Of a stretch of DNA of 64,000 nt, positions 684 through 9,793 are shown piece after piece; the first letter of the stretch is position 1, and each line of letters begins with the position of its first letter. The notes under the pieces are model-generated. The model was not told the origin of the DNA. It worked only from the letters and a program-made list of their open reading frames with translations, and searched no databases. Source of the stretch: Anaerolineae bacterium (GTDB taxonomy: Bacteria; Chloroflexota; Anaerolineae; Caldilineales; Caldilineaceae); the NCBI GenBank assembly GCA_030432295.1, contig JAUIHI010000005.1, forward strand, positions 124,001 to 188,000, written 5' to 3'. A program made the position numbers and the translations under genes.

Positions 684-1781
684 TTACCGAATCGGGGGAG
701 CGTAGAGCAGGCCACCTTCGGTGTAGAGGCTGTTCAGGCCACGGGGCAGATTGAAGACTGTGTCCGGGCCGAGATTCTTGTTGTAGATCTCGCCGTAGTT
801 GCCGACCTGCTTGATGACCTGCACGAAGCAGTCGTTGGCCAGGCCCACTTTGCTGCAGAATTCGCCTTCCAGGCCGAGCAGTTTCATGATATTGGGGTCT
901 TCTGTGTCCATAAAGGTGTCTACATTGGCGCTGGTGATGCCCATCTCTTCAGCGGTGAATGTGGCATAAACAACCCAGGTTACCAGGTCATACCACTGGT
1001 CGTCGCCGTGGCGCACAGCCGGTCCCAGGGGTTCTTTGGAGAGGGTGACATTCATAATCTCGTGGGCCGAAGGATCGGCCATAACCGTCTGTCGGGAGAC
1101 GAGACCAGACTTGTCTGTGGTCCAGGCATCGCAGCGACCTTCTTCATAGGCAGTGGTCACTTCGTCGGCGGTCTCAAAGACAACCGGTTCGTAGCTCACA
1201 CCTGCCGCGGCCATCTGGTCGGCCAGATTAAGCTCGGTGGTGGTGCCTGTCTGCACGCAGATGGAAGCGCCGTTCAGGTCCTGCAGGGTGACAATGCTGC
1301 TGTCTTTGTGCACCATAATGCCCTGGCCGTCGTAGAAGGTGGTGGGCGCAAAGTTCATGCCCAGGTCGGTTTCCCGGGACATAGTATCAGTGGTGTTACG
1401 GATCAGCACATCGGCTTCGCCGCTCTGAAGCACTGTGAAGCGCTCGGAAGCGGTGGTGGCGCGAATCTCGGCTTTGGTGGCATCGCCAAAGATGGCCGCG
1501 GCCAGGGCCTTGCAGTAGTCCACATCAAACCCTGTGAAGACACCAGCTTCGTCCAGGAAGCCAAAGCCCGGCAGCACTGCATTGCCTACGCAAATAATTT
1601 TGCCCCGTTCTTTTACGATGTCCAGGGTGGATTTGGCGTCTGTCTGGGCCACAGGCGCGGCCGGTTCTTCGGCGGTGGTGGACGCAGGGGCCGCCGCAGG
1701 AGCCAGACAGGCAGCAATAACCATGCCCACAACCATGGACAGAATCAGCGCTACGGTTTGAACTTTTTTACCTTTCAGCAT
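684..1781 (-). CDS. aapJ: General L-amino acid ABC transporter, substrate-binding lipoprotein (AapJ-like)
   Basis: 365 residues. It captures amino acids outside the membrane and delivers them to the AapQ/M permease. The start at 1781 is chosen because AAGGAG lies six bases upstream; a reading-frame start 17 codons further up has no such site. The signal peptide ends in IAAC, giving a lipobox with Cys25 as the probable lipidated residue, followed by an Ala/Pro/Thr linker (about 26-45). The family 3 binding fold follows, with the family signature GFGFLDEAGVFTGFDVDYCKALAAA (about 75-99) and the AapJ-typical long C-terminal half (DDQWYDLVTWVVYATFTAEE). aapQ follows after a palindromic spacer. Specificity cannot be read from the sequence. 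Confidence 0.9.
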   Translation of the reverse strand: MLKGKKVQTVALILSMVVGMVIAACLAPAAAPASTTAEEPAAPVAQTDAKSTLDIVKERGKIICVGNAVLPGFGFLDEAGVFTGFDVDYCKALAAAIFGDATKAEIRATTASERFTVLQSGEADVLIRNTTDTMSRETDLGMNFAPTTFYDGQGIMVHKDSSIVTLQDLNGASICVQTGTTTELNLADQMAAAGVSYEPVVFETADEVTTAYEEGRCDAWTTDKSGLVSRQTVMADPSAHEIMNVTLSKEPLGPAVRHGDDQWYDLVTWVVYATFTAEEMGITSANVDTFMDTEDPNIMKLLGLEGEFCSKVGLANDCFVQVIKQVGNYGEIYNKNLGPDTVFNLPRGLNSLYTEGGLLYAPPIR

Positions 1782-2239
1782 TGCATTCTCCTTGTGATAG
1801 AAAAAAAGGGTGACAGAAAATCTTTGGAACAATCGAAAAGCAAATACGTTGGAGAGTTGCCAGACGATTGCAAAGCACGAGTGAGAAAACGGCAGGTGAA
1901 AAAAGGCTGAACTGAATTTAGGGGTTTGGCAAAGTATACTTCCCCCTAGGGGCGTATACTAGAATGCCAGACACGCCAGTGGATTATACATATACCTTCA
2001 GTTTTAGGTGGGTGCATCGACCCAACACAGACCCAATTGCGGGGGACCGCAGCAACGGGCCAATCTTGTGGCAAAATGCCTGTGGCACGCCCATCGGATG
2101 AGGCATTTGCCTCGACTTCAACCTGCATATCCTACGGAGTTGTAGATACTATACAGGATTTGACAGATATTTGCAAACTCTTGATTCGTTGTGTAAGCGG
2201 TTTCATTGGACTGGAACCCCAGCAAATCGCCCGGTCTGT
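1782..2239. other. Non-coding spacer upstream of aapJ and the zinc-ribbon gene
   Basis: No convincing gene: the open frames here are overlaps of neighbours with no ribosome-binding site or recognisable protein. It should hold the minus-strand aapJ promoter. Visible structure is the GTATAC-flanked palindrome at 1934-1959 and a weak inverted repeat around 2071-2109 (GCAAAATGCC against GGCATTTGC). Confidence 0.5.
1934..1959. promoter_or_regulatory. Candidate operator palindrome upstream of aapJ
   Basis: GTATAC, three bases, CCCC-TA-GGGG, one base, GTATAC: nested inverted repeats about 155 bp upstream of the aapJ start. The outer GTATAC repeats contain TATACT-like -10 elements in both directions. 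It may be a regulator site for amino acid uptake; this is inferred from symmetry only. Confidence 0.3.
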
Positions 2240-2268
2240 TTGGTCATCCCATCGGGCTGGGCTATAAT
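2240..2268 (+). promoter_or_regulatory. Sigma-70-type promoter for the zinc-ribbon gene
   Basis: TTGGTC at 2240-2245, a 17-base spacer, and a perfect TATAAT at 2263-2268. Transcription would start near 2275, about 25 bases before the ATG at 2301. Confidence 0.7.
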
Positions 2269-2300
2269 TGCGGCAGTCTATCTTTCTTGGGAGAGTTTGT

Positions 2301-2837
2301 ATGTCAACTGATCTGGTCAATTCAATTGCCACTGTTTTAGGGATTGCTGTTGCGCTGCTTGGCGCTTTTCTTTTTGCCTTTTGGATCGCAATGGGCATTT
2401 GGACCTTCAACGACATCCGTTCTCGCACCCGGGATTGGCTGGCGATTGGCCTGGCCTGTCTGCTCTCCCTCATCTTCCCGTTGGTCGGGTTGATCCTCTA
2501 TATGATGATTCGCCCCAAAGATACCCTGGCCGATGTCTATGACCGGGCGCTGGAAGAAGAGGCTATCCTGCGCGAGTTGGAGGAGACTGTTACTTGCCAC
2601 AATTGCGGCGTGCCGGTCAAGGGCGAGTGGGTCTTCTGCCCCAACTGCCACGCCCAGCAGCAATACGCCTGCGATAATTGCGGCACACTTGTGCGCCAGG
2701 AATGGGACATCTGCGTGACCTGCGGCGCTCCCCAGACGGGCGCACCCACCGGTTTCAGCCAGCCGCCCCACCAACAGGTCGATCCTCGGATGGCCGAGGC
2801 CAATCTGGGCTATCGGCCCGTGCAGATGGGGGAGTAG
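2301..2837 (+). CDS. Membrane-anchored double zinc-ribbon protein, function unknown
   Basis: 178 residues. The ATG at 2301 is preceded by GGGAG. Two membrane segments lie at about 5-32 (VLGIAVALLGAFLFAFWIAMGIW) and 46-66 (WLAIGLACLLSLIFPLVGLILYMMI). The cytoplasmic part has an acidic linker rich in Glu, then paired zinc-binding CxxC knuckles: CHNC, CPNC, CDNC and CVTC, which form two rubredoxin-like zinc ribbons at about 97-145. The C-terminus is Pro/Gln-rich. Such membrane zinc ribbons are common and uncharacterised. The gene stands alone with its own promoter and a strong terminator downstream. Confidence 0.75.
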   Translation: MSTDLVNSIATVLGIAVALLGAFLFAFWIAMGIWTFNDIRSRTRDWLAIGLACLLSLIFPLVGLILYMMIRPKDTLADVYDRALEEEAILRELEETVTCHNCGVPVKGEWVFCPNCHAQQQYACDNCGTLVRQEWDICVTCGAPQTGAPTGFSQPPHQQVDPRMAEANLGYRPVQMGE

Positions 2838-3138: not shown

Positions 3139-4395
3139 TCAACCGCAACCGCCGCCGCCCTTGGCTCCGGCCGACTGTAGTTCGACTTTGGGCACAAAGG
3201 GCGTACCGTCATCGTGCTGGCTGGGTGTGGCGGCTGGTGCATTGGCCCCCAGGGCTGCCGAGAAGACGTAGTCGAGTTTCTCGTCGTTGCCTATAGAAGC
3301 AAGCAGGGGATACATACCCTCGCCGTAGACTGCAATCCAGTTGTTGATGCCCCCTTCCAAAATGTAGACATTGGGCAAGCCCAGAGCCACCAGCGTCTTC
3401 CACGCCGCGGTGGAGAGAGTCTCTCCGTTGCTGACGATGACATAGACTGTGTTGTCAGGCAAGGCCACCAAATCGTCCACCGCGGCGGGCAGATCGGCCA
3501 GGTCCATGCGCACCGAATCCCGCAGGTGGAAGATATTGAAGTTGGCCTCGTCACGCACGTCGATCACGGCCAGCTTGACGTTGGGATCAAAGGTGAGGCT
3601 GCGCAACTCTGCCGGATGAATCTGGACAAGGCGCTCGTCCAGTCTTACCTGCTCGGTGGCGGCTACCCGCTCCCAGAGGGCAGCCGGGTCTGGCTGGCCG
3701 ATGAGGAGGACGGCCAAAGCTGCTACAGCCAGGACCCCAGCCCCGGCAAAGCGCCAGGTGTTGGACGGTCTGGTCGCCGGAGTCGATGCTGTGTTCTGTG
3801 GGGCATCCGGCTCTTTCGCGCTGTAGGCTCGGGCGAGCAGTTCGGATCCCCAAAGCAGAAAGAGGGCCACCACCACCACAATGAAGACCAGCCAGCCGAT
3901 GCTCACCCCCAGCCAATCGGAGATGAGAAAACGCCCCATATAGCTGGAATTATAGAAGGTGTCAAAGCGGCTGGTCTCTTCGCCAAAGATGACGATGCCA
4001 GCCAGAATGCCGACCAGATAGAAGATAGCGTCGATTTTGCCCGTGGCCGCAGCCATCACCGAAGTGCCGGGACAGAAGCCGCCGATAATAAAGCCCACAC
4101 CGATCATAAAACCGCCGATGATCCCCGGCCATAGGTAAGTCTCTGGAATCCAGATTCGGTTGATGTCAAGCCAGCCCATCGCGGCTGCGCCAAAGACCAG
4201 AACCATCGCCACAATCACACCGGTGAACATGACCTGAAAGACAGTCTGATCCCGGAGATAGAACTGTCCGGTCAATTTGGTCGAGACCGCAAATCCAGAC
4301 ATCTCCAACGCCACGCCAAAGCCGATGCCGATGGCCAGGTAGATAGCGTAGGTGCCAAATTTGCCCAGAATCGCAATTAGATCGAAGGGTGCCAT
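3139..4395 (-). CDS. YeeE/YedE-type sulfur transporter half fused to a rhodanese-like domain with a Gly-Cys tail
   Basis: 418 residues. AAGGAG lies eight bases before the ATG at 4395. Five membrane segments (about 13-35, 55-75, 87-110, 121-140, 161-184) include the YeeE motif GGFCPGTS with Cys108. After a charged Pro/Thr linker comes a sixth segment (about 214-234), then a rhodanese-like fold at about 255-365 (VIDVRDEANFNIFHLRDS; LPNVYILEGGINNW). By the positive-inside rule that domain lies outside the cytoplasm. The rhodanese active-site Cys is absent: the loop reads VIVSNGETLS. The protein has just two cysteines, Cys108 and Cys417 in the terminal GGGGCG. YeeE proteins import thiosulfate; the Cys tail recalls the SoxY swinging arm (inference). 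It follows the smaller YeeE gene by 12 bases. Confidence 0.8.
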   Translation of the reverse strand: MAPFDLIAILGKFGTYAIYLAIGIGFGVALEMSGFAVSTKLTGQFYLRDQTVFQVMFTGVIVAMVLVFGAAAMGWLDINRIWIPETYLWPGIIGGFMIGVGFIIGGFCPGTSVMAAATGKIDAIFYLVGILAGIVIFGEETSRFDTFYNSSYMGRFLISDWLGVSIGWLVFIVVVVALFLLWGSELLARAYSAKEPDAPQNTASTPATRPSNTWRFAGAGVLAVAALAVLLIGQPDPAALWERVAATEQVRLDERLVQIHPAELRSLTFDPNVKLAVIDVRDEANFNIFHLRDSVRMDLADLPAAVDDLVALPDNTVYVIVSNGETLSTAAWKTLVALGLPNVYILEGGINNWIAVYGEGMYPLLASIGNDEKLDYVFSAALGANAPAATPSQHDDGTPFVPKVELQSAGAKGGGGCG

Positions 4396-4407
4396 TTCAG
4401 ATTCTCC

Positions 4408-4962
4408 TTAATTCCACAGACGGCGTACAAAGAAGGCCAACAGGTAGCCCCCCGCGAAGAAGGCCAACAGAAAGGCCCAGCTACCCACCGAGAGCGTGGC
4501 CGCGCCAGACAATCCCTGGCCAGACGTGCAGCCCCGGGCCAGACGCGCCCCAAAGCCGGTGATGATGCCGCCCAGCACAGCCATACCCCAGCGGGTCTGC
4601 GTGCTGATGTTGGGGCCTTTGATAGTTGTCCAGGTCAGCCGATGGCTGCGCCAGGCCGACACAAAGCCCCCAGTGAAAATGCCCACAGTCATAAGGACAA
4701 TCCAGTGGTCCAGGGCGTTTTTGTCTCCCCCAGCGTAGGAAACCAGATAGGATACCCGGTCCGAATGTTCGGGGGCCGCCAGATCGATGAACCAGATGAT
4801 CATACGGTTCAACCCGCCGGACGCGCCCAGACCGTTGCCTGTGAAGAAGAAGGCAGCAAAGAGGACCAGTCCCAGCAATGTGCCCGCCACATAAGGGTTG
4901 GCGAAGGGCTTGGGTGCTGTTTCGTTCTTTATAGCAGATGCTGATTGTGTCATAGCCGTCAT
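4408..4962 (-). CDS. YeeE/YedE-type transporter, small half
   Basis: 184 residues. The ATG at 4962 has AGGAG seven bases upstream, preferred over a longer frame start. There are four membrane segments (about 26-42, 52-62 weak, 85-103, 124-142, 155-175). The conserved RGCTSGQGLSG motif with its only cysteine (Cys145) matches the second Cys motif of full-length YeeE; the first motif (CPGT) is in the next gene. The two proteins therefore look like a split YeeE that must assemble to form the thiosulfate path. It is part of the minus-strand operon behind the cytochromes (gap 88 bases) and ahead of the rhodanese fusion. Confidence 0.8.
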   Translation of the reverse strand: MTAMTQSASAIKNETAPKPFANPYVAGTLLGLVLFAAFFFTGNGLGASGGLNRMIIWFIDLAAPEHSDRVSYLVSYAGGDKNALDHWIVLMTVGIFTGGFVSAWRSHRLTWTTIKGPNISTQTRWGMAVLGGIITGFGARLARGCTSGQGLSGAATLSVGSWAFLLAFFAGGYLLAFFVRRLWN

Positions 4963-5050
4963 ATCATTGCTCCTGAATAGGCCTACTGAAAGGGGGCGTC
5001 CGCTCTGCATACGCCATTGACGCACCCCTGGGTCTCAACGCGATCTTTCT

Positions 5051-7834
5051 TTATGCATCCCCATCATCAATTAATTCCACTTCTTCCCAACCCACAGTCA
5101 TGGCCTTGAGGGCGGCCAAGGGGGTGTGTCCTGTGGTGATGAGATAGACGTGCAAAACCACAAAGGTGGCGAATAGCCAGGCGATCAGCGTGTGGAAGGG
5201 CGCCAGCCAGGGCAGCCCGCCTAGTTGAGCCGCGAGGAGTGGCCATCTGGTGACCCCCCACATGACGATGCCGGTAATCACCTGCAAAGGCAACAGCACA
5301 TTGAGAATGACCAGATAGGTTATCTGCTGCAGGGGATTCAGCTTGCTGCCCGGCAACTTCTGGAAGGGGTGAGGTTCACCCCGGAAGATGCCTCGCACAT
5401 AGTATTCCGCCTGGGTCAACATCTGAGGGAAATAGCCCACAGGTTGCGGCAGATATTGGCGAATCTGGCCGCTGGCGAAGTGATAGAATGCGGCAAACAG
5501 GGCATTTGCCACAAGCAGGGCAGCTAGAATATTGTGGACAGGCACAACCAGCCCCAGGTCCAAAAAGCCCAGGCTGTCAGGGCGGTGAATGATAATCCCT
5601 GTAGCCAGCAGAAGCAGAATGACGATGGACTGCATCCAGTGCCAGGCCCGCTCGTAGAAGCCGTACATATAGAACTTGTGCAGCTTTCCCTTGCGATGAG
5701 TCTTCTTTACCCGGCGACCGGCCTGATAGACCCGCAGGCCGCCGTGGACGAATACCCCCGCCAGGGTGGTCAAGAAAGCGGACAGACCGACCCATCCCAC
5801 CCACTCCACTCGATTGTGTCCGGGCACGTAGAGGCCCATAGCAGTCGTGCTTGGGACATAGTTGACAGTGCTGTTCTCACTCACTGTCAATTCCCCGACA
5901 ACAGTCACCCCCGACACGTTGGTGAATTGGGGCGTCACGTCTCCTGGCCGATAGGCGGCCACTTGGAAGGTGTGGTTCAGGCGGGAATCTTCGATGTGGC
6001 AGGTCTTGCACTCACCTGTGGCAAAGGAGCCGTTGGTCACATCGTGGCTGATGGCGTAGGGTTGGATCTCTCCCTGGATTTGGGGGTCTGCCAGGCCCAG
6101 GGCGACCAGTTCGCCCCGCACCAGATCGACTTTGGCAGCGTTGTCCAGGCGCAGTTCCGTTTCGTCCAATTGGCCGTTGCCATCTGCGTCAAAGAGCGCC
6201 AGAATCTGGGGACGATAGCTATCGCCCGCGCCGTCCTCGGTCAGATAGACCCGGCGCAGATCTTCCAGCCGCACGGGCCGGAGTGGATCGCCATAGGTCC
6301 AGAAATAGGTGGTAACCAGGTTGAACGGGGCCAGTTGGGCTTCCCCGTCCACCCCCGTGCGGGGCAACAAGACCGGTTCATAACCTGTGATCAGGGCGGT
6401 CAAATCGTTCACGTCCCCCTCTACGCCCCGATAGGTGACCAAACTGGCGCCATCTGTGTGGATGGCTGTCCAATCCACCTGCTCCAGGGGTGCCGCGTAG
6501 AGTTCTGGGATGTGGCAGCTCTCACAGCTTAGAACGGAGAGATGCAGATCTGAGTAGGGCAGCCAGTCGTGGGTGGTCTCTGCGTCGTGGCAAGATTCGC
6601 AGCGACGCATGGAATCGGTATATTGGGCGGACACCAAATGTTGGGACGCCTCACCCCGGGCGAAGTTATGTTCCGGCTGCACCAGATAATAGTCATAGTC
6701 CAGACGTCGGGGATCGAAATTCAGGTGGTCCGGGCGAGACCCATCGGGTTCCTGGTAGTAGATGGGGTTGTTGACCGAAAAGTGGCAATCTGTGCAGGCC
6801 ACGTTGCGCTCGGCGTGGATGTCATAGGCACGGTTAAGCTCGTCCTTATTCTCGATGTTCAATCCCGTGTCTTTCACCCGCTGGCCGGTGAATATCTGGC
6901 CCGTGCGCTGAGTGTGCAGATCGTCAGCGGTGATCTCACTGGGCATCAAAGGCTCCGCGCTGGTGTGAACAGTGCCATGACAGGCGCCGCAGTTCTCCGG
7001 CGTTGGGTCCTGGATAAAGACGTAATCGGCAAGCAGAGAACCTTCGGAAGAGAAGGCGTCCGGGTTCCAGTTCCAAACCTCTCCCTCTTTGAGCAGAATG
7101 TCCGTGCTGGCTAGCGTAGCCGTATTAGCCCAACCGAAGTTCCCCGCAGTCAACTCCTCGGATCGGGCCGTCAGATCCGGATCAGCCATATGGCAGAGGA
7201 AACAGTTCATTTCCTCCACACCGGACTCGGACCAGTCCCAGACAGAGAGTTGGCTGGTGGCTGGATTGTAGCTGTGGGTGAAGGGATCGTCGCTGGTCAC
7301 AGCCAGGTCGGCCAAAGGCGTGCCATCCGGCGCGTTTGTGGCCGGGCCACCGCCCACATGGCGCGGTCCATAGAATTTGATCCAGTCCGCCAGGCCCAAG
7401 TCATAGCGTTCGTCGCCGGGCGGGGTGAGATAGCGATAGGCAATCGAGTCCCAGCCGCCAAAAAGCCCATGACTCATCTCCCAGGGCTGGCCGTTGGGCT
7501 GTTGGCCTGGGGCAGTGTAGCTTTCCCGTCCCACGCTGGTATGGAAGCTATGGTCGGCGATAAATCCAGTGTCGTGGCAGTTGCCACAAGTCTGCATAGT
7601 GGAGAGCGAATGGCCCGACACCAGCACATTGACCCCATCTGTGTCCAGCAGCGGGAAGGTGGGATGCAATGGCGAGACCCCAGGCGTTTGTTCCTGAGCC
7701 TGGGCCAAGCCCCCGTCCATCAGCCCCACGCCTAAAAGCAGGAGAGCGACCAGGGAGATGTAGAGGAGTATTCCCACCAGGCTTGGCGGTGCTTTGCGTA
7801 TTGAGGTGGGTAAGACGCGTGAAGGGTGGCTCAC
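5051..7834 (-). CDS. Seven-haem cytochrome c fused to a cytochrome b561-type membrane domain
   Basis: 927 residues. An N-terminal signal or anchor (about 18-46, ending AQAQ) leads to an extracytoplasmic region with seven CxxCH haem sites: CGNCH (83-87), CFLCH, CGACH, CTDCH, CESCH, CESCH and CKTCH, the last near 610. From about 690 on there are five or so membrane helices with b-haem-type histidines (YERAWHWMQSIVILLLLATG, VPVHNILAALLVANALFAAFYHFASG, FHTLIAWLFATFVVLHVYL), as in thiosulfate and formate reductase b subunits. It would pass electrons between the quinone pool and the octahaem partner. Its ATG overlaps the stop of the octahaem gene (ATGA), so the two are probably translated together. 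The fusion of both parts in one chain is unusual. Confidence 0.8.
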   Translation of the reverse strand: MSHPSRVLPTSIRKAPPSLVGILLYISLVALLLLGVGLMDGGLAQAQEQTPGVSPLHPTFPLLDTDGVNVLVSGHSLSTMQTCGNCHDTGFIADHSFHTSVGRESYTAPGQQPNGQPWEMSHGLFGGWDSIAYRYLTPPGDERYDLGLADWIKFYGPRHVGGGPATNAPDGTPLADLAVTSDDPFTHSYNPATSQLSVWDWSESGVEEMNCFLCHMADPDLTARSEELTAGNFGWANTATLASTDILLKEGEVWNWNPDAFSSEGSLLADYVFIQDPTPENCGACHGTVHTSAEPLMPSEITADDLHTQRTGQIFTGQRVKDTGLNIENKDELNRAYDIHAERNVACTDCHFSVNNPIYYQEPDGSRPDHLNFDPRRLDYDYYLVQPEHNFARGEASQHLVSAQYTDSMRRCESCHDAETTHDWLPYSDLHLSVLSCESCHIPELYAAPLEQVDWTAIHTDGASLVTYRGVEGDVNDLTALITGYEPVLLPRTGVDGEAQLAPFNLVTTYFWTYGDPLRPVRLEDLRRVYLTEDGAGDSYRPQILALFDADGNGQLDETELRLDNAAKVDLVRGELVALGLADPQIQGEIQPYAISHDVTNGSFATGECKTCHIEDSRLNHTFQVAAYRPGDVTPQFTNVSGVTVVGELTVSENSTVNYVPSTTAMGLYVPGHNRVEWVGWVGLSAFLTTLAGVFVHGGLRVYQAGRRVKKTHRKGKLHKFYMYGFYERAWHWMQSIVILLLLATGIIIHRPDSLGFLDLGLVVPVHNILAALLVANALFAAFYHFASGQIRQYLPQPVGYFPQMLTQAEYYVRGIFRGEPHPFQKLPGSKLNPLQQITYLVILNVLLPLQVITGIVMWGVTRWPLLAAQLGGLPWLAPFHTLIAWLFATFVVLHVYLITTGHTPLAALKAMTVGWEEVELIDDGDA

Positions 7835-9327
7835 TGTTGTGCCTCCTGGTCGTTGTTCAGGTTGCTGGAGAGAGTACCAGGCGGCACGCTCAACTGCTGC
7901 TCCCGGCTGCCGAAGAACATCGGATCGCCGTCATAGCCCAGGGCGGCCCAATCGAGACGGCCTGAGCCACTCCCCTCTACATGGCAGGCCGCGCATTGCA
8001 GCGAATCTTCGGACGGGGCGACCATATGGGTGATGGGCCAATACATCTCTGTATCGGCAAACCCGTATTCACCGGAATAGGGCAACCCCACCCTCTCCGA
8101 CCCCAAGCGGGCCGCCTGATCCCAGTCGAAATCGGTCCAATAGCCCCCCTCGCCAAAAGTCTTGGGCTGGATCAGTGTGTTGTAGACGGTGTCGTATATC
8201 TGGTTTGCTTCGTGAACTTTGAAGGGGAAAATTTTCGCACTGGGATCGGCGATGGACCCCTTGGGCTTGACCATTTCTGTGATCTGGCTGGGATCGATCA
8301 CATCGCCCAGAATGTAACGGTCCGCTGTGCCCGAATACCAGGCATAGGTGGGTATCACATTTGACTCGTAGACAAAAGCCCCCTTGATCTTCAGATACTC
8401 GTGTGTGTCTTGGGGCAGGTCCTGGCCCGCTTCGGACCAGAGCCACTCAACTTTTGTGGCTTCCTTGCGGGCGAATTCGGGAATGTGACAGGTCTGGCAG
8501 GCCACAGTGGCCGTGTGATCGTTTAGCCGGTCATCCTCGTGGGGTTCTTCCGCATGGCAATCGGTGCAATAGATCTGATTCGCATCGTCCAGACTGACGC
8601 TGATAGCGCGGCCATCGATCTCGTGATGCTCCGCCTGGTGGCAATCGGTGCAGACAAAGTCGTACTCGCCCATGTGTACATCCAATTCCGGGCTGGGGTT
8701 GAGCATGCTGTTGTCCAGGTCCCCGTGTTTGACAGCATCGCCGCCGCCGCCGGTGAAGTGGCAACTGCCGCAGTTGTCACGGCTGGGGTTTGCCACACTT
8801 TCGGCCACAGCCACCAGGTCAATACCCTCCTCGGGCTGGCCGCCTTTTCCCTTTATATACAGGCCGGACTGATCGTGACACGCAACGCAATCCACAGCCG
8901 TCTCTTCGGTGAAATCAAAATTTTCGTCCACCCAGCCGTAGCCGGTATGGCACGAAGTGCAGGCCGCTTCGTTGCTCTGGATGCCGATGCAGAAGTTGTT
9001 GAGCACATTGGCCTTGCCCGTGTAGACCGGTTCTTCGTGGCCGGGCAGGTCGTAGGGGCCGTGCTCCCACGTCCAGTGGGACGTCGCCATGACTTCCGAG
9101 GCCGCTCCTTCATGACAGGACAGGCAGGCTGCGGTCACTTCCGGGCCAGTGGTCAGTGGGTCGGTGAAGAGGCCGGTATGATCTGTGTGGGCCATGTGGT
9201 CGGGAAGACCATCCCATGGATCAACCTTTTGAGGTTCAAAAAAACCGGTCAGATAACCTATCGGTAGGATAATGATCAGCAGGGTAACGAGAGCGCCTGC
9301 GATCCAGCCATATCTGGAGAACTTCAT
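7831..9327 (-). CDS. Octahaem c-type cytochrome of the tetrathionate reductase (OTR) family
   Basis: 498 residues. The start at 9327 (GAGG upstream, directly before the signal anchor) is preferred over one 17 codons earlier. An N-terminal anchor lies at about 9-28. Eight CxxCH sites follow: C68, C123, C147, C186, C226, C254, C277 and a last one near 458 after a long haem-free stretch; number and spacing fit the OTR family. Shewanella OTR reduces tetrathionate, nitrite and hydroxylamine in vitro, so the true substrate here is open. The YeeE neighbours favour sulfur oxyanions. It would be periplasmic and membrane-tethered, exchanging electrons with the next gene product, whose start overlaps its stop by four bases. 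Confidence 0.85.
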   Translation of the reverse strand: MKFSRYGWIAGALVTLLIIILPIGYLTGFFEPQKVDPWDGLPDHMAHTDHTGLFTDPLTTGPEVTAACLSCHEGAASEVMATSHWTWEHGPYDLPGHEEPVYTGKANVLNNFCIGIQSNEAACTSCHTGYGWVDENFDFTEETAVDCVACHDQSGLYIKGKGGQPEEGIDLVAVAESVANPSRDNCGSCHFTGGGGDAVKHGDLDNSMLNPSPELDVHMGEYDFVCTDCHQAEHHEIDGRAISVSLDDANQIYCTDCHAEEPHEDDRLNDHTATVACQTCHIPEFARKEATKVEWLWSEAGQDLPQDTHEYLKIKGAFVYESNVIPTYAWYSGTADRYILGDVIDPSQITEMVKPKGSIADPSAKIFPFKVHEANQIYDTVYNTLIQPKTFGEGGYWTDFDWDQAARLGSERVGLPYSGEYGFADTEMYWPITHMVAPSEDSLQCAACHVEGSGSGRLDWAALGYDGDPMFFGSREQQLSVPPGTLSSNLNNDQEAQQ

Positions 9328-9402
9328 ATCGACCTCATTTACTAGACCTGGCGAGATAACATCCGACACCGACTTCAACCTGTCTGGATTGAATCGGTAG
9401 AG

Positions 9403-9732
9403 TCATTGGGATGAGTTGAGAACACGAACCTGCGCACTAATTCGGGCGTGGTATACATCGCGCAACAGATCCAGGGCGGTGATCACCCGTGGGTCTGTGA
9501 GTTTGTACAAAATGTTCTGCCCCTGTCGCTCGCTGAGAACCAGATGGGTGTCTCGCAGCACGCGTAGATGACGGGAAACTGTGGGTTGGGGCAGATCAAG
9601 CCGGGCTGTGATGTCGGTAACATTCACTGGCCCCTCGTTGAGCACATATAGAATTGCAATGCGAATCGGGTCTGCAACACCGGAGCAGATTTCTGCATGG
9701 AGACGACGAAGTTCATCTTGTGATGGAATCAT
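9403..9732 (-). CDS. ArsR/SmtB-family transcriptional repressor
   Basis: 109 residues from the ATG at 9732 (GAGG about 12 bases upstream; a TTG nine codons earlier is the alternative). It is a winged helix typical of ArsR: GVADPIRIAILYVL, then the recognition region LDLPQPTVSRHLRVLRDTHLVLSERQGQNILYKL. Only one cysteine is present (Cys16, ICSG), so the dithiol switch of SqrR/BigR is not evident and no metal site is clear. It is first in the operon, 75 bases before the octahaem gene, with a palindrome just upstream. The likely role is control of the sulfur/cytochrome operon and itself in response to a sulfur or redox signal (inference). Confidence 0.85.
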   Translation of the reverse strand: MIPSQDELRRLHAEICSGVADPIRIAILYVLNEGPVNVTDITARLDLPQPTVSRHLRVLRDTHLVLSERQGQNILYKLTDPRVITALDLLRDVYHARISAQVRVLNSSQ

Positions 9733-9773: not shown

Positions 9774-9793
9774 ATATTCGGATATGCGAATAT
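9774..9793. promoter_or_regulatory. Probable ArsR operator
   Basis: ATATTCG-6-CGAATAT, a perfect inverted repeat 42 bases upstream of the arsR-like ATG, in an AT-rich promoter-like stretch. Size and base content fit ArsR-family sites. Confidence 0.55.

Follow-up and report, generated by a model that had tools for sequence, protein, structure and literature searches.

The natural substrate of OTR-family octahaem cytochromes is unsettled. The Shewanella enzyme reduces nitrite and hydroxylamine as well (PMC4484225), and an Otr-b561 gene cluster has been reported in Ignavibacteriae Ch128a (PMC7509429). In TsuA, the Cys91 and Cys293 equivalents are indispensable (PMC11582611), and SoxY carries sulfur on the Cys of a C-terminal GGCGG motif (PMC6067878). 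Here we describe a cassette, present in about ten phyla, in which one clade of OTRs is tied to a putative sulfur importer bearing an arm of its own. It was found in a 64,000-nucleotide stretch of DNA from an Anaerolineae bacterium, the whole of which is called the window below. The author of an earlier note on this DNA knew of no described system with just this gene set, and the literature searched contained none. Neither the gene set nor the arm was described in the full texts covered, a body of literature that leaves out most subscription papers, and a literature search for TsoR returned no match.

Gene content and conservation of the cassette

The cassette consists of five genes on the minus strand (3139–9732), encoding an ArsR repressor, an OTR, a c/b561 fusion (CBF) and the two halves of a YeeE protein, one of which bears a rhodanese-like domain; all five are present as the earlier note had described them. 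The ArsR/SmtB-family repressor (9403–9732, minus strand; NF033788, 83 bits against a cut-off of 55) precedes a membrane-anchored octahaem OTR-family cytochrome (7831–9327, minus strand; TIGR04315, 564 bits against a cut-off of 375, eight CxxCH motifs). The OTR reading frame opens at 9378, and translations and alignment place its conserved start codon at ATG 9327 and that of the YeeE C half at ATG 4962. The OTR and fusion genes overlap at 7831–7834, where the sequence is GTGA and not the ATGA originally given. From profile matches and CxxCH motifs, CBF (5051–7834, minus strand) joins a c-type domain with seven haem motifs (residues ~57–660) to a quinone-type cytochrome b561 membrane domain (~720–917; PF01292, 73 bits). 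The latter also matched the PhsC-like model PRK15006 at 119 bits, which is under that model's own cut-off, and in a Foldseek search with the CBF model it resembled the quinone-reactive cytochromes FdnI and HyaC. The same search returned no solved relative of the seven-haem domain, a result that, coming from a model built without haems, should not be read as evidence for a new fold. The last two genes encode the halves of a YeeE-type sulfur channel: a PmpA-like C-terminal half with a conserved GCTSG Cys motif (4408–4962, minus strand; Sulf_transp positions 174–309) and a PmpB-like N-terminal half (3139–4395, minus strand; positions 3–196). Together they cover the N and C halves of PF04143, with a conserved Cys in each. 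A perfect inverted repeat flanked by A and T runs, read in the sequence at 2935–2976, is a probable bidirectional terminator closing the operon, which is convergent with an ORF at 2268–2837 (plus strand). This ORF, a double zinc-ribbon membrane protein, and the one at 684–1832 (minus strand), a family-3 amino-acid-type binding protein, adjoin the cassette without being conserved neighbors.

The earlier note had staked its claim on the gene order recurring in related genomes, with OTR, YeeE and the c/b fusion found together. The order proved to be strongly conserved. When 400 Chloroflexota genomes were searched with CBF, 16 full-length copies turned up, the window's own among them and one of the 16 lying in two frames, all of them in one class, and OTRs over the cut-off occurred in exactly the same 16 genomes. 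The block ArsR-OTR-fusion-YeeE-YeeE/rhodanese was present in every one of them with the seven and eight haem motifs retained, the ArsR-like gene of L036 lying past the opposite end of the block on the other strand. All 15 full-length CBF relatives from other Chloroflexota genomes fall in this same gene block. A scan of all bacterial and archaeal genomes with an OTR alignment, from which the best 80 loci were taken, gave loci labelled Chloroflexota, Calditrichota, KSB1, Planctomycetota, Gemmatimonadota, Pseudomonadota, Actinomycetota (Acidimicrobiia), Neomarinimicrobiota/Fidelibacterota, Latescibacterota and Myxococcota. The order OTR-fusion-YeeE-YeeE/rhodanese was kept in 57 of the 59 loci that extend 6 kb or more from the OTR start, in about ten phyla; the exceptions were L121, which has no YeeE, and L130, a frame artefact of the gene table. 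Because the 15 CBF relatives share one block and the order is kept in nearly all long enough loci, the cassette is not a chance association, and the proposal of a single sulfur-linked functional unit with an electron chain is supported.

Some variation was observed around this core. ArsR stands ahead of OTR in 42 of 69 loci, and the fusion of the Planctomycetota, Latescibacterota and Myxococcota loci is either shorter or partly divided between separate c and b genes. Misbinning may account for a few of the phylum labels; L151, labelled Planctomycetota, nests within Chloroflexota in the OTR tree. A decayed cassette was found in G096 (L048, 8751–10341), where the fusion contains TGA and TAG stops and the genome has no OTR, so that here the cassette is lost as a unit. 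In the flanks of the cassette loci no gene family beyond the five genes was widely common, an XRE-type regulator being present in 12 loci and all other families being rarer. The block therefore behaves as a single module, and a bigger conserved neighborhood was rejected.

The window OTR matched the solved S. oneidensis OTR (1sp3) at 510 bits. The active-site residues of 1sp3 are Asn61, Cys64, Asp150 and Lys153, and all four are present in the alignment, as N127, C130, D214 and K217 of the 515-aa ORF. Among the 80 cassette OTRs, the NNFC motif was found in 75 and the Lys of the KHG motif in 78. The position aligned with D150 is Asn in most of them, with Asp kept in the window (D214). This substitution is possibly a tuning of the active site, and it counts against the leading reading of the cassette given below. 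Reduction of tetrathionate, nitrite or hydroxylamine by the window OTR is a prediction from its family.

OTRs outside the cassette have a different setting. An OTR over the cut-off was found in 25 of 321 Gammaproteobacteria genomes, one of the 25 being the cassette genome used as centre. When ~18–19 non-cassette OTR-family loci, mostly gammaproteobacterial and over the cut-off and including three distant relatives, were read with wider flanks, a stand-alone b561 gene followed OTR in 16; the three distant loci lacked even b561, and one locus (L215) had weak YeeE-like matches. With b561 at most in those 16 loci, the idea that the cassette is the generic OTR neighborhood was ruled out. In a tree of 125 OTR proteins, the 94 cassette OTRs formed one group apart from the rest (SH-aLRT 96). 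A second OTR lies near the cassette in five loci (L087, 4116–6332; L098, 5626–7362; L105, 3633–5891; L142, 517–3798; L158, 5381–7705), and four of these five group with the gammaproteobacterial non-cassette OTRs. Two further loci, L065 (G106) and L206 (G792), encode OTR-like proteins with ten CxxCH motifs that are ~33% identical and have no cassette genes. The activities of the Shewanella enzyme (PMC4484225) could mean that the cassette is an ammonifying nitrite or hydroxylamine reductase with the sulfur genes as passengers. We regard this as very improbable, since the YeeE pair and its arm are too constant across the 57 loci and their phyla to be passengers and the flanks contain no conserved nitrogen gene. 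A nitrogen-only reductase was accordingly dropped as the leading reading, YeeE and the arm being inseparable from OTR in the cassette clade.

The putative importer, its arm and the UGA codons

The transporter is split as the earlier note had it, and the rhodanese fold lies on the N half. At 184 and 418 residues the two proteins are longer than the short PmpAB proteins (~130 residues, four TM helices), and the N half carries an added TM helix, a rhodanese-like domain (3331–3615, minus strand) and a Gly-rich C-terminal arm. The active-site Cys of the domain is absent, with VSNGE standing where the Cys loop is expected, and a catalytic Cys was found in this loop in none of the rows of a 41-row alignment, into which two Sec-type sequences had been entered with TGA read as C. 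Foldseek matched the domain to rhodanese folds. AlphaFold modelled it with high confidence and assigned none to the last six residues, the tail being predicted to be disordered. By the positive-inside rule and loop charge, the rhodanese domain and the tail, like the N terminus, are predicted to lie outside. The alignment has 43 invariant columns, among them the channel cysteine Cys108 (GGFCPGT; codon 4072–4074, minus strand) and G415-G416-C417-G418 of the arm (GGGCG; 3142–3156, minus strand), in which the penultimate Cys417 is encoded at 3145–3147. The GGCG tail closes the larger YeeE protein in nearly every locus and gives it a C-terminal Gly-rich Cys motif in the style of SoxY. The SoxY Pfam domain itself was not matched in the arm-bearing protein. 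It was also missing from 15 cassette genomes, a comparison that shows little because control genomes were equally blank.

Both cysteines are replaced by UGA codons in relatives. At the C-terminal end, GGG-TGA-GGC-stop was read in three of the best 80 loci, and a search of the class added three more, giving six distinct genomes (L082=G624, L097/L173=G698, L137, L171=G556, L172=G587 and L174=G518) with a predicted Sec in the arm. The channel Cys is also TGA in L171, L173 and L174 (GGF-U-PGT or GGY-U-PGT). The Sec-type genes have no further stops in ~416 codons, and a hairpin with a G[G/U] loop lies 18–20 nt past every UGA. The published bSECIS model (PMC13188914) has a loop of 3–9 nt whose first two positions contain G, a spacing of 16–37 nt and an energy of at most −7.5 kcal/mol. 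By these values, a bSECIS hairpin follows all six C-terminal sites, versus 8 of 70 Cys-type loci, and all three channel sites, versus 7 of 62. Similar coding hairpins are frequent in Cys-type genes, which makes the channel-site hairpin weak evidence when taken alone; the C-terminal hairpin, being non-coding, is the stronger evidence for Sec. SelB exceeded the cut-off in four of these six genomes; it was not found in the other two, G587 and G518, which are fragmented assemblies (87–89% complete). Nor did any SelB match exceed the cut-off in two Cys-type genomes of Gammaproteobacteria.

All Sec-type cases come from metagenome assemblies, and decayed cassettes with TGA and TAG stops do exist (G096/L048), so the UGA codons might be sequencing errors or signs of gene decay. 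We find this exceedingly improbable given that the identical two positions are affected in six genomes within a frame that is otherwise free of stops, that each UGA is followed by its hairpin at nearly constant distance, and that most of these genomes have SelB. The OTRs of three Sec-type loci (L082, L097 and L137) cluster across phyla in the tree, together with that of L134, and Sec may therefore have had a single origin and then spread. The occurrence of UGA at the channel and arm positions of relatives also indicates that both cysteines are probably redox or sulfur-handling residues, these natural Cys-to-Sec swaps flagging the reactive residues of importer and arm.

Regulation, sirohaem reductases and proposed function

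The repressor was identified as the earlier note had it. It has a single Cys column, invariant in 59/59 homologues, and an operator-like palindrome, TATTCGGATATGCGAATA (9775–9792), lies 43 nt upstream of its ATG. In 44 of 59 loci, with one mismatch allowed, the operator TATTCG-N6-CGAATA precedes ArsR by no more than 170 bp, and sites of this type are 320-fold denser there than in the rest of those loci. The exact site is found only once in the window and in the whole window genome. Each of the 11 genomes with an exact site has just one, located at the cassette by position in ten and on another contig in G569; the reversed control pattern had no match in these 11 genomes. The repressor therefore seems to be dedicated to the cassette operon.

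In the window's genome (100% complete), no protein matched NIR_SIR at the chosen threshold, so that no sulfite or nitrite reductase of the sirohaem type was observed. Within the window's family, no genome had both the cassette and NIR_SIR, while 7 had the cassette, 26 had NIR_SIR and 4 had neither (Fisher 3e-5, which is not a true probability because the genomes are related). This exclusion spans seven cassette genera. Class-wide, the avoidance is weak (13/70 versus 94/326, p = 0.10). Congeners of the window's organism without the cassette (family f1, e.g. G707 and G755) carry NIR_SIR, the reverse of the window genome. The exclusion suggests that the cassette supplies reduced sulfur.

The earlier note had suggested a sulfur oxyanion or polysulfide cycle that links outside sulfur chemistry to the quinone pool. 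Taken together, the arm, the operator, the Cys-less rhodanese, the predicted Sec replacements and the NIR_SIR exclusion make capture and import of sulfur a likelier role than such a respiratory cycle. Our preferred reading, on which our confidence is evenly divided, is that the cassette is a self-contained, ArsR-controlled system for sulfur capture and import, with a quinol-linked haem chain and an arm-carrying importer whose proteins would form a complex. The b561 domain of CBF would exchange electrons with the quinone pool, taking them from quinol as its PhsC-like sequence and FdnI/HyaC-like fold suggest, and the seven-haem domain would relay them to the octahaem enzyme at the outer membrane face. 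The split YeeE pair would form the sulfur channel, its larger half holding the Cys-less rhodanese fold outside the membrane, and the flexible Gly-rich tail ending in Cys or Sec would serve as a covalent sulfur carrier. The arm residue may capture a sulfur (oxy)anion, for example tetrathionate, thiosulfate or polysulfide, so that OTR could reduce or cleave the S-S(O) bond of the arm-held compound with quinol electrons. Sulfane sulfur would then be passed to the channel cysteines and on to the cytoplasm, where it would feed sulfur assimilation and act on the single invariant Cys of ArsR to lift repression.

A c/b561 chain can run in both directions, and the main rival, which we consider unlikely, is oxidative and Sox-like. 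OTR would conjugate thiosulfate or sulfide onto the arm Cys, as SoxXA does on SoxY, electrons would pass via CBF to the quinone pool, and sulfane sulfur would be imported for cytoplasmic oxidation. This fits the resemblance of the arm to the GGCGG of SoxY and of the importer to SoxT, which moves sulfur inward for oxidation (PMC11582611), as well as the otr genes that adjoin soxYZ in lucinid symbionts (PMC11237559). It also fits a cluster that follows the cassette in L104 (16127–19436), consisting of genes for a rhodanese, TauE, a metallo-beta-lactamase with two rhodanese domains (persulfide dioxygenase-like), DUF302 and another rhodanese. Similar genes occur in L119, L122 and L123. On the other hand, the b561 domain comes nearest to quinol oxidases of the PhsC type, the thiosulfate/tetrathionate couple has a high potential for a reductant of quinones, and the SoxY domain was not found in the 15 cassette genomes, nor in the controls.

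YedE relatives have been tied to selenium (PMC9312934), rhodanese and ArsR genes would suit a reactive-sulfur response, and the operator stands once per genome, solely at this operon, in ten of 11 genomes. The cassette could thus be a device for handling or sensing selenium or reactive sulfur and serve neither nutrition nor respiration. This appears improbable to us, because fifteen haems and a quinone-type cytochrome would be costly for sensing and the Cys form is found in gammaproteobacterial genomes without an over-cut-off SelB.

With sulfur capture and import as the preferred role, we put forward tentatively, and with some doubt, the broader proposal that the cassette is an unrecognised sulfur machine: a transporter with its own covalent Cys/Sec arm, which a dedicated multihaem redox chain would load and discharge. 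Such a machine would provide the cell with reduced sulfur and take the place of sirohaem sulfite reductase in many bacteria that are uncultured. If this proposal is true, a protein-bound sulfur adduct would be the natural substrate for one OTR clade. Common, uncultured Chloroflexota might then assimilate sulfur by a route that does not depend on sirohaem. In any case, the cassette offers residues and an operator that can be tested.

Comparison with described systems

The canonical arrangement of otr with a stand-alone b561 gene (S. oneidensis, Ch128a) shares with the cassette the eight haems, the same active-site residues and the adjoining b561. It has no seven-haem domain, YeeE pair, arm or ArsR, however, and its OTRs are separate in the tree. 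The Sox system (SoxXA, SoxYZ, SoxT) likewise has a Gly-rich C-terminal Cys arm outside the membrane, a haem redox partner and a YeeE-type importer. In the cassette, by contrast, there is no SoxY domain, the arm is built into the importer and the haem enzyme is OTR and not SoxXA, so that the two arms are best regarded as alike in mechanism or function and not as homologous.

The closest importers are split YeeE pairs of the PmpAB type and SoxT transporters with ArsR-type regulators (PMC11582611, PMC12423496). With these the cassette shares separate genes for the N and C halves, one essential Cys per half equivalent to TsuA Cys91 or Cys293, and ArsR control. To this plan the cassette adds a TM helix, an extracytoplasmic rhodanese fold and a carrier tail on the N half, together with two multihaem cytochrome genes. 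Its ArsR has one conserved Cys, unlike the sulfane-sulfur sensors SoxR and sHdrR, which have two that form a sulfur bridge. A selenoprotein catalogue from 2026 has, in its accessible part, separate entries for a 'YeeE/YedE family' with GUxSG and a 'TIGR04315 octaheme cytochrome' (PMC13188914). Sec thus occurs there in the same two families, and GUxSG fits the GCTSG of the cassette C half; that part of the catalogue lists no YeeE-rhodanese protein whose Sec lies in GGF-U-PGT or a GGG-U-G tail and describes no common operon. The families that make up the cassette are already known, and what appears to be new is their assembly, the arm carried on the importer and the two Sec sites.
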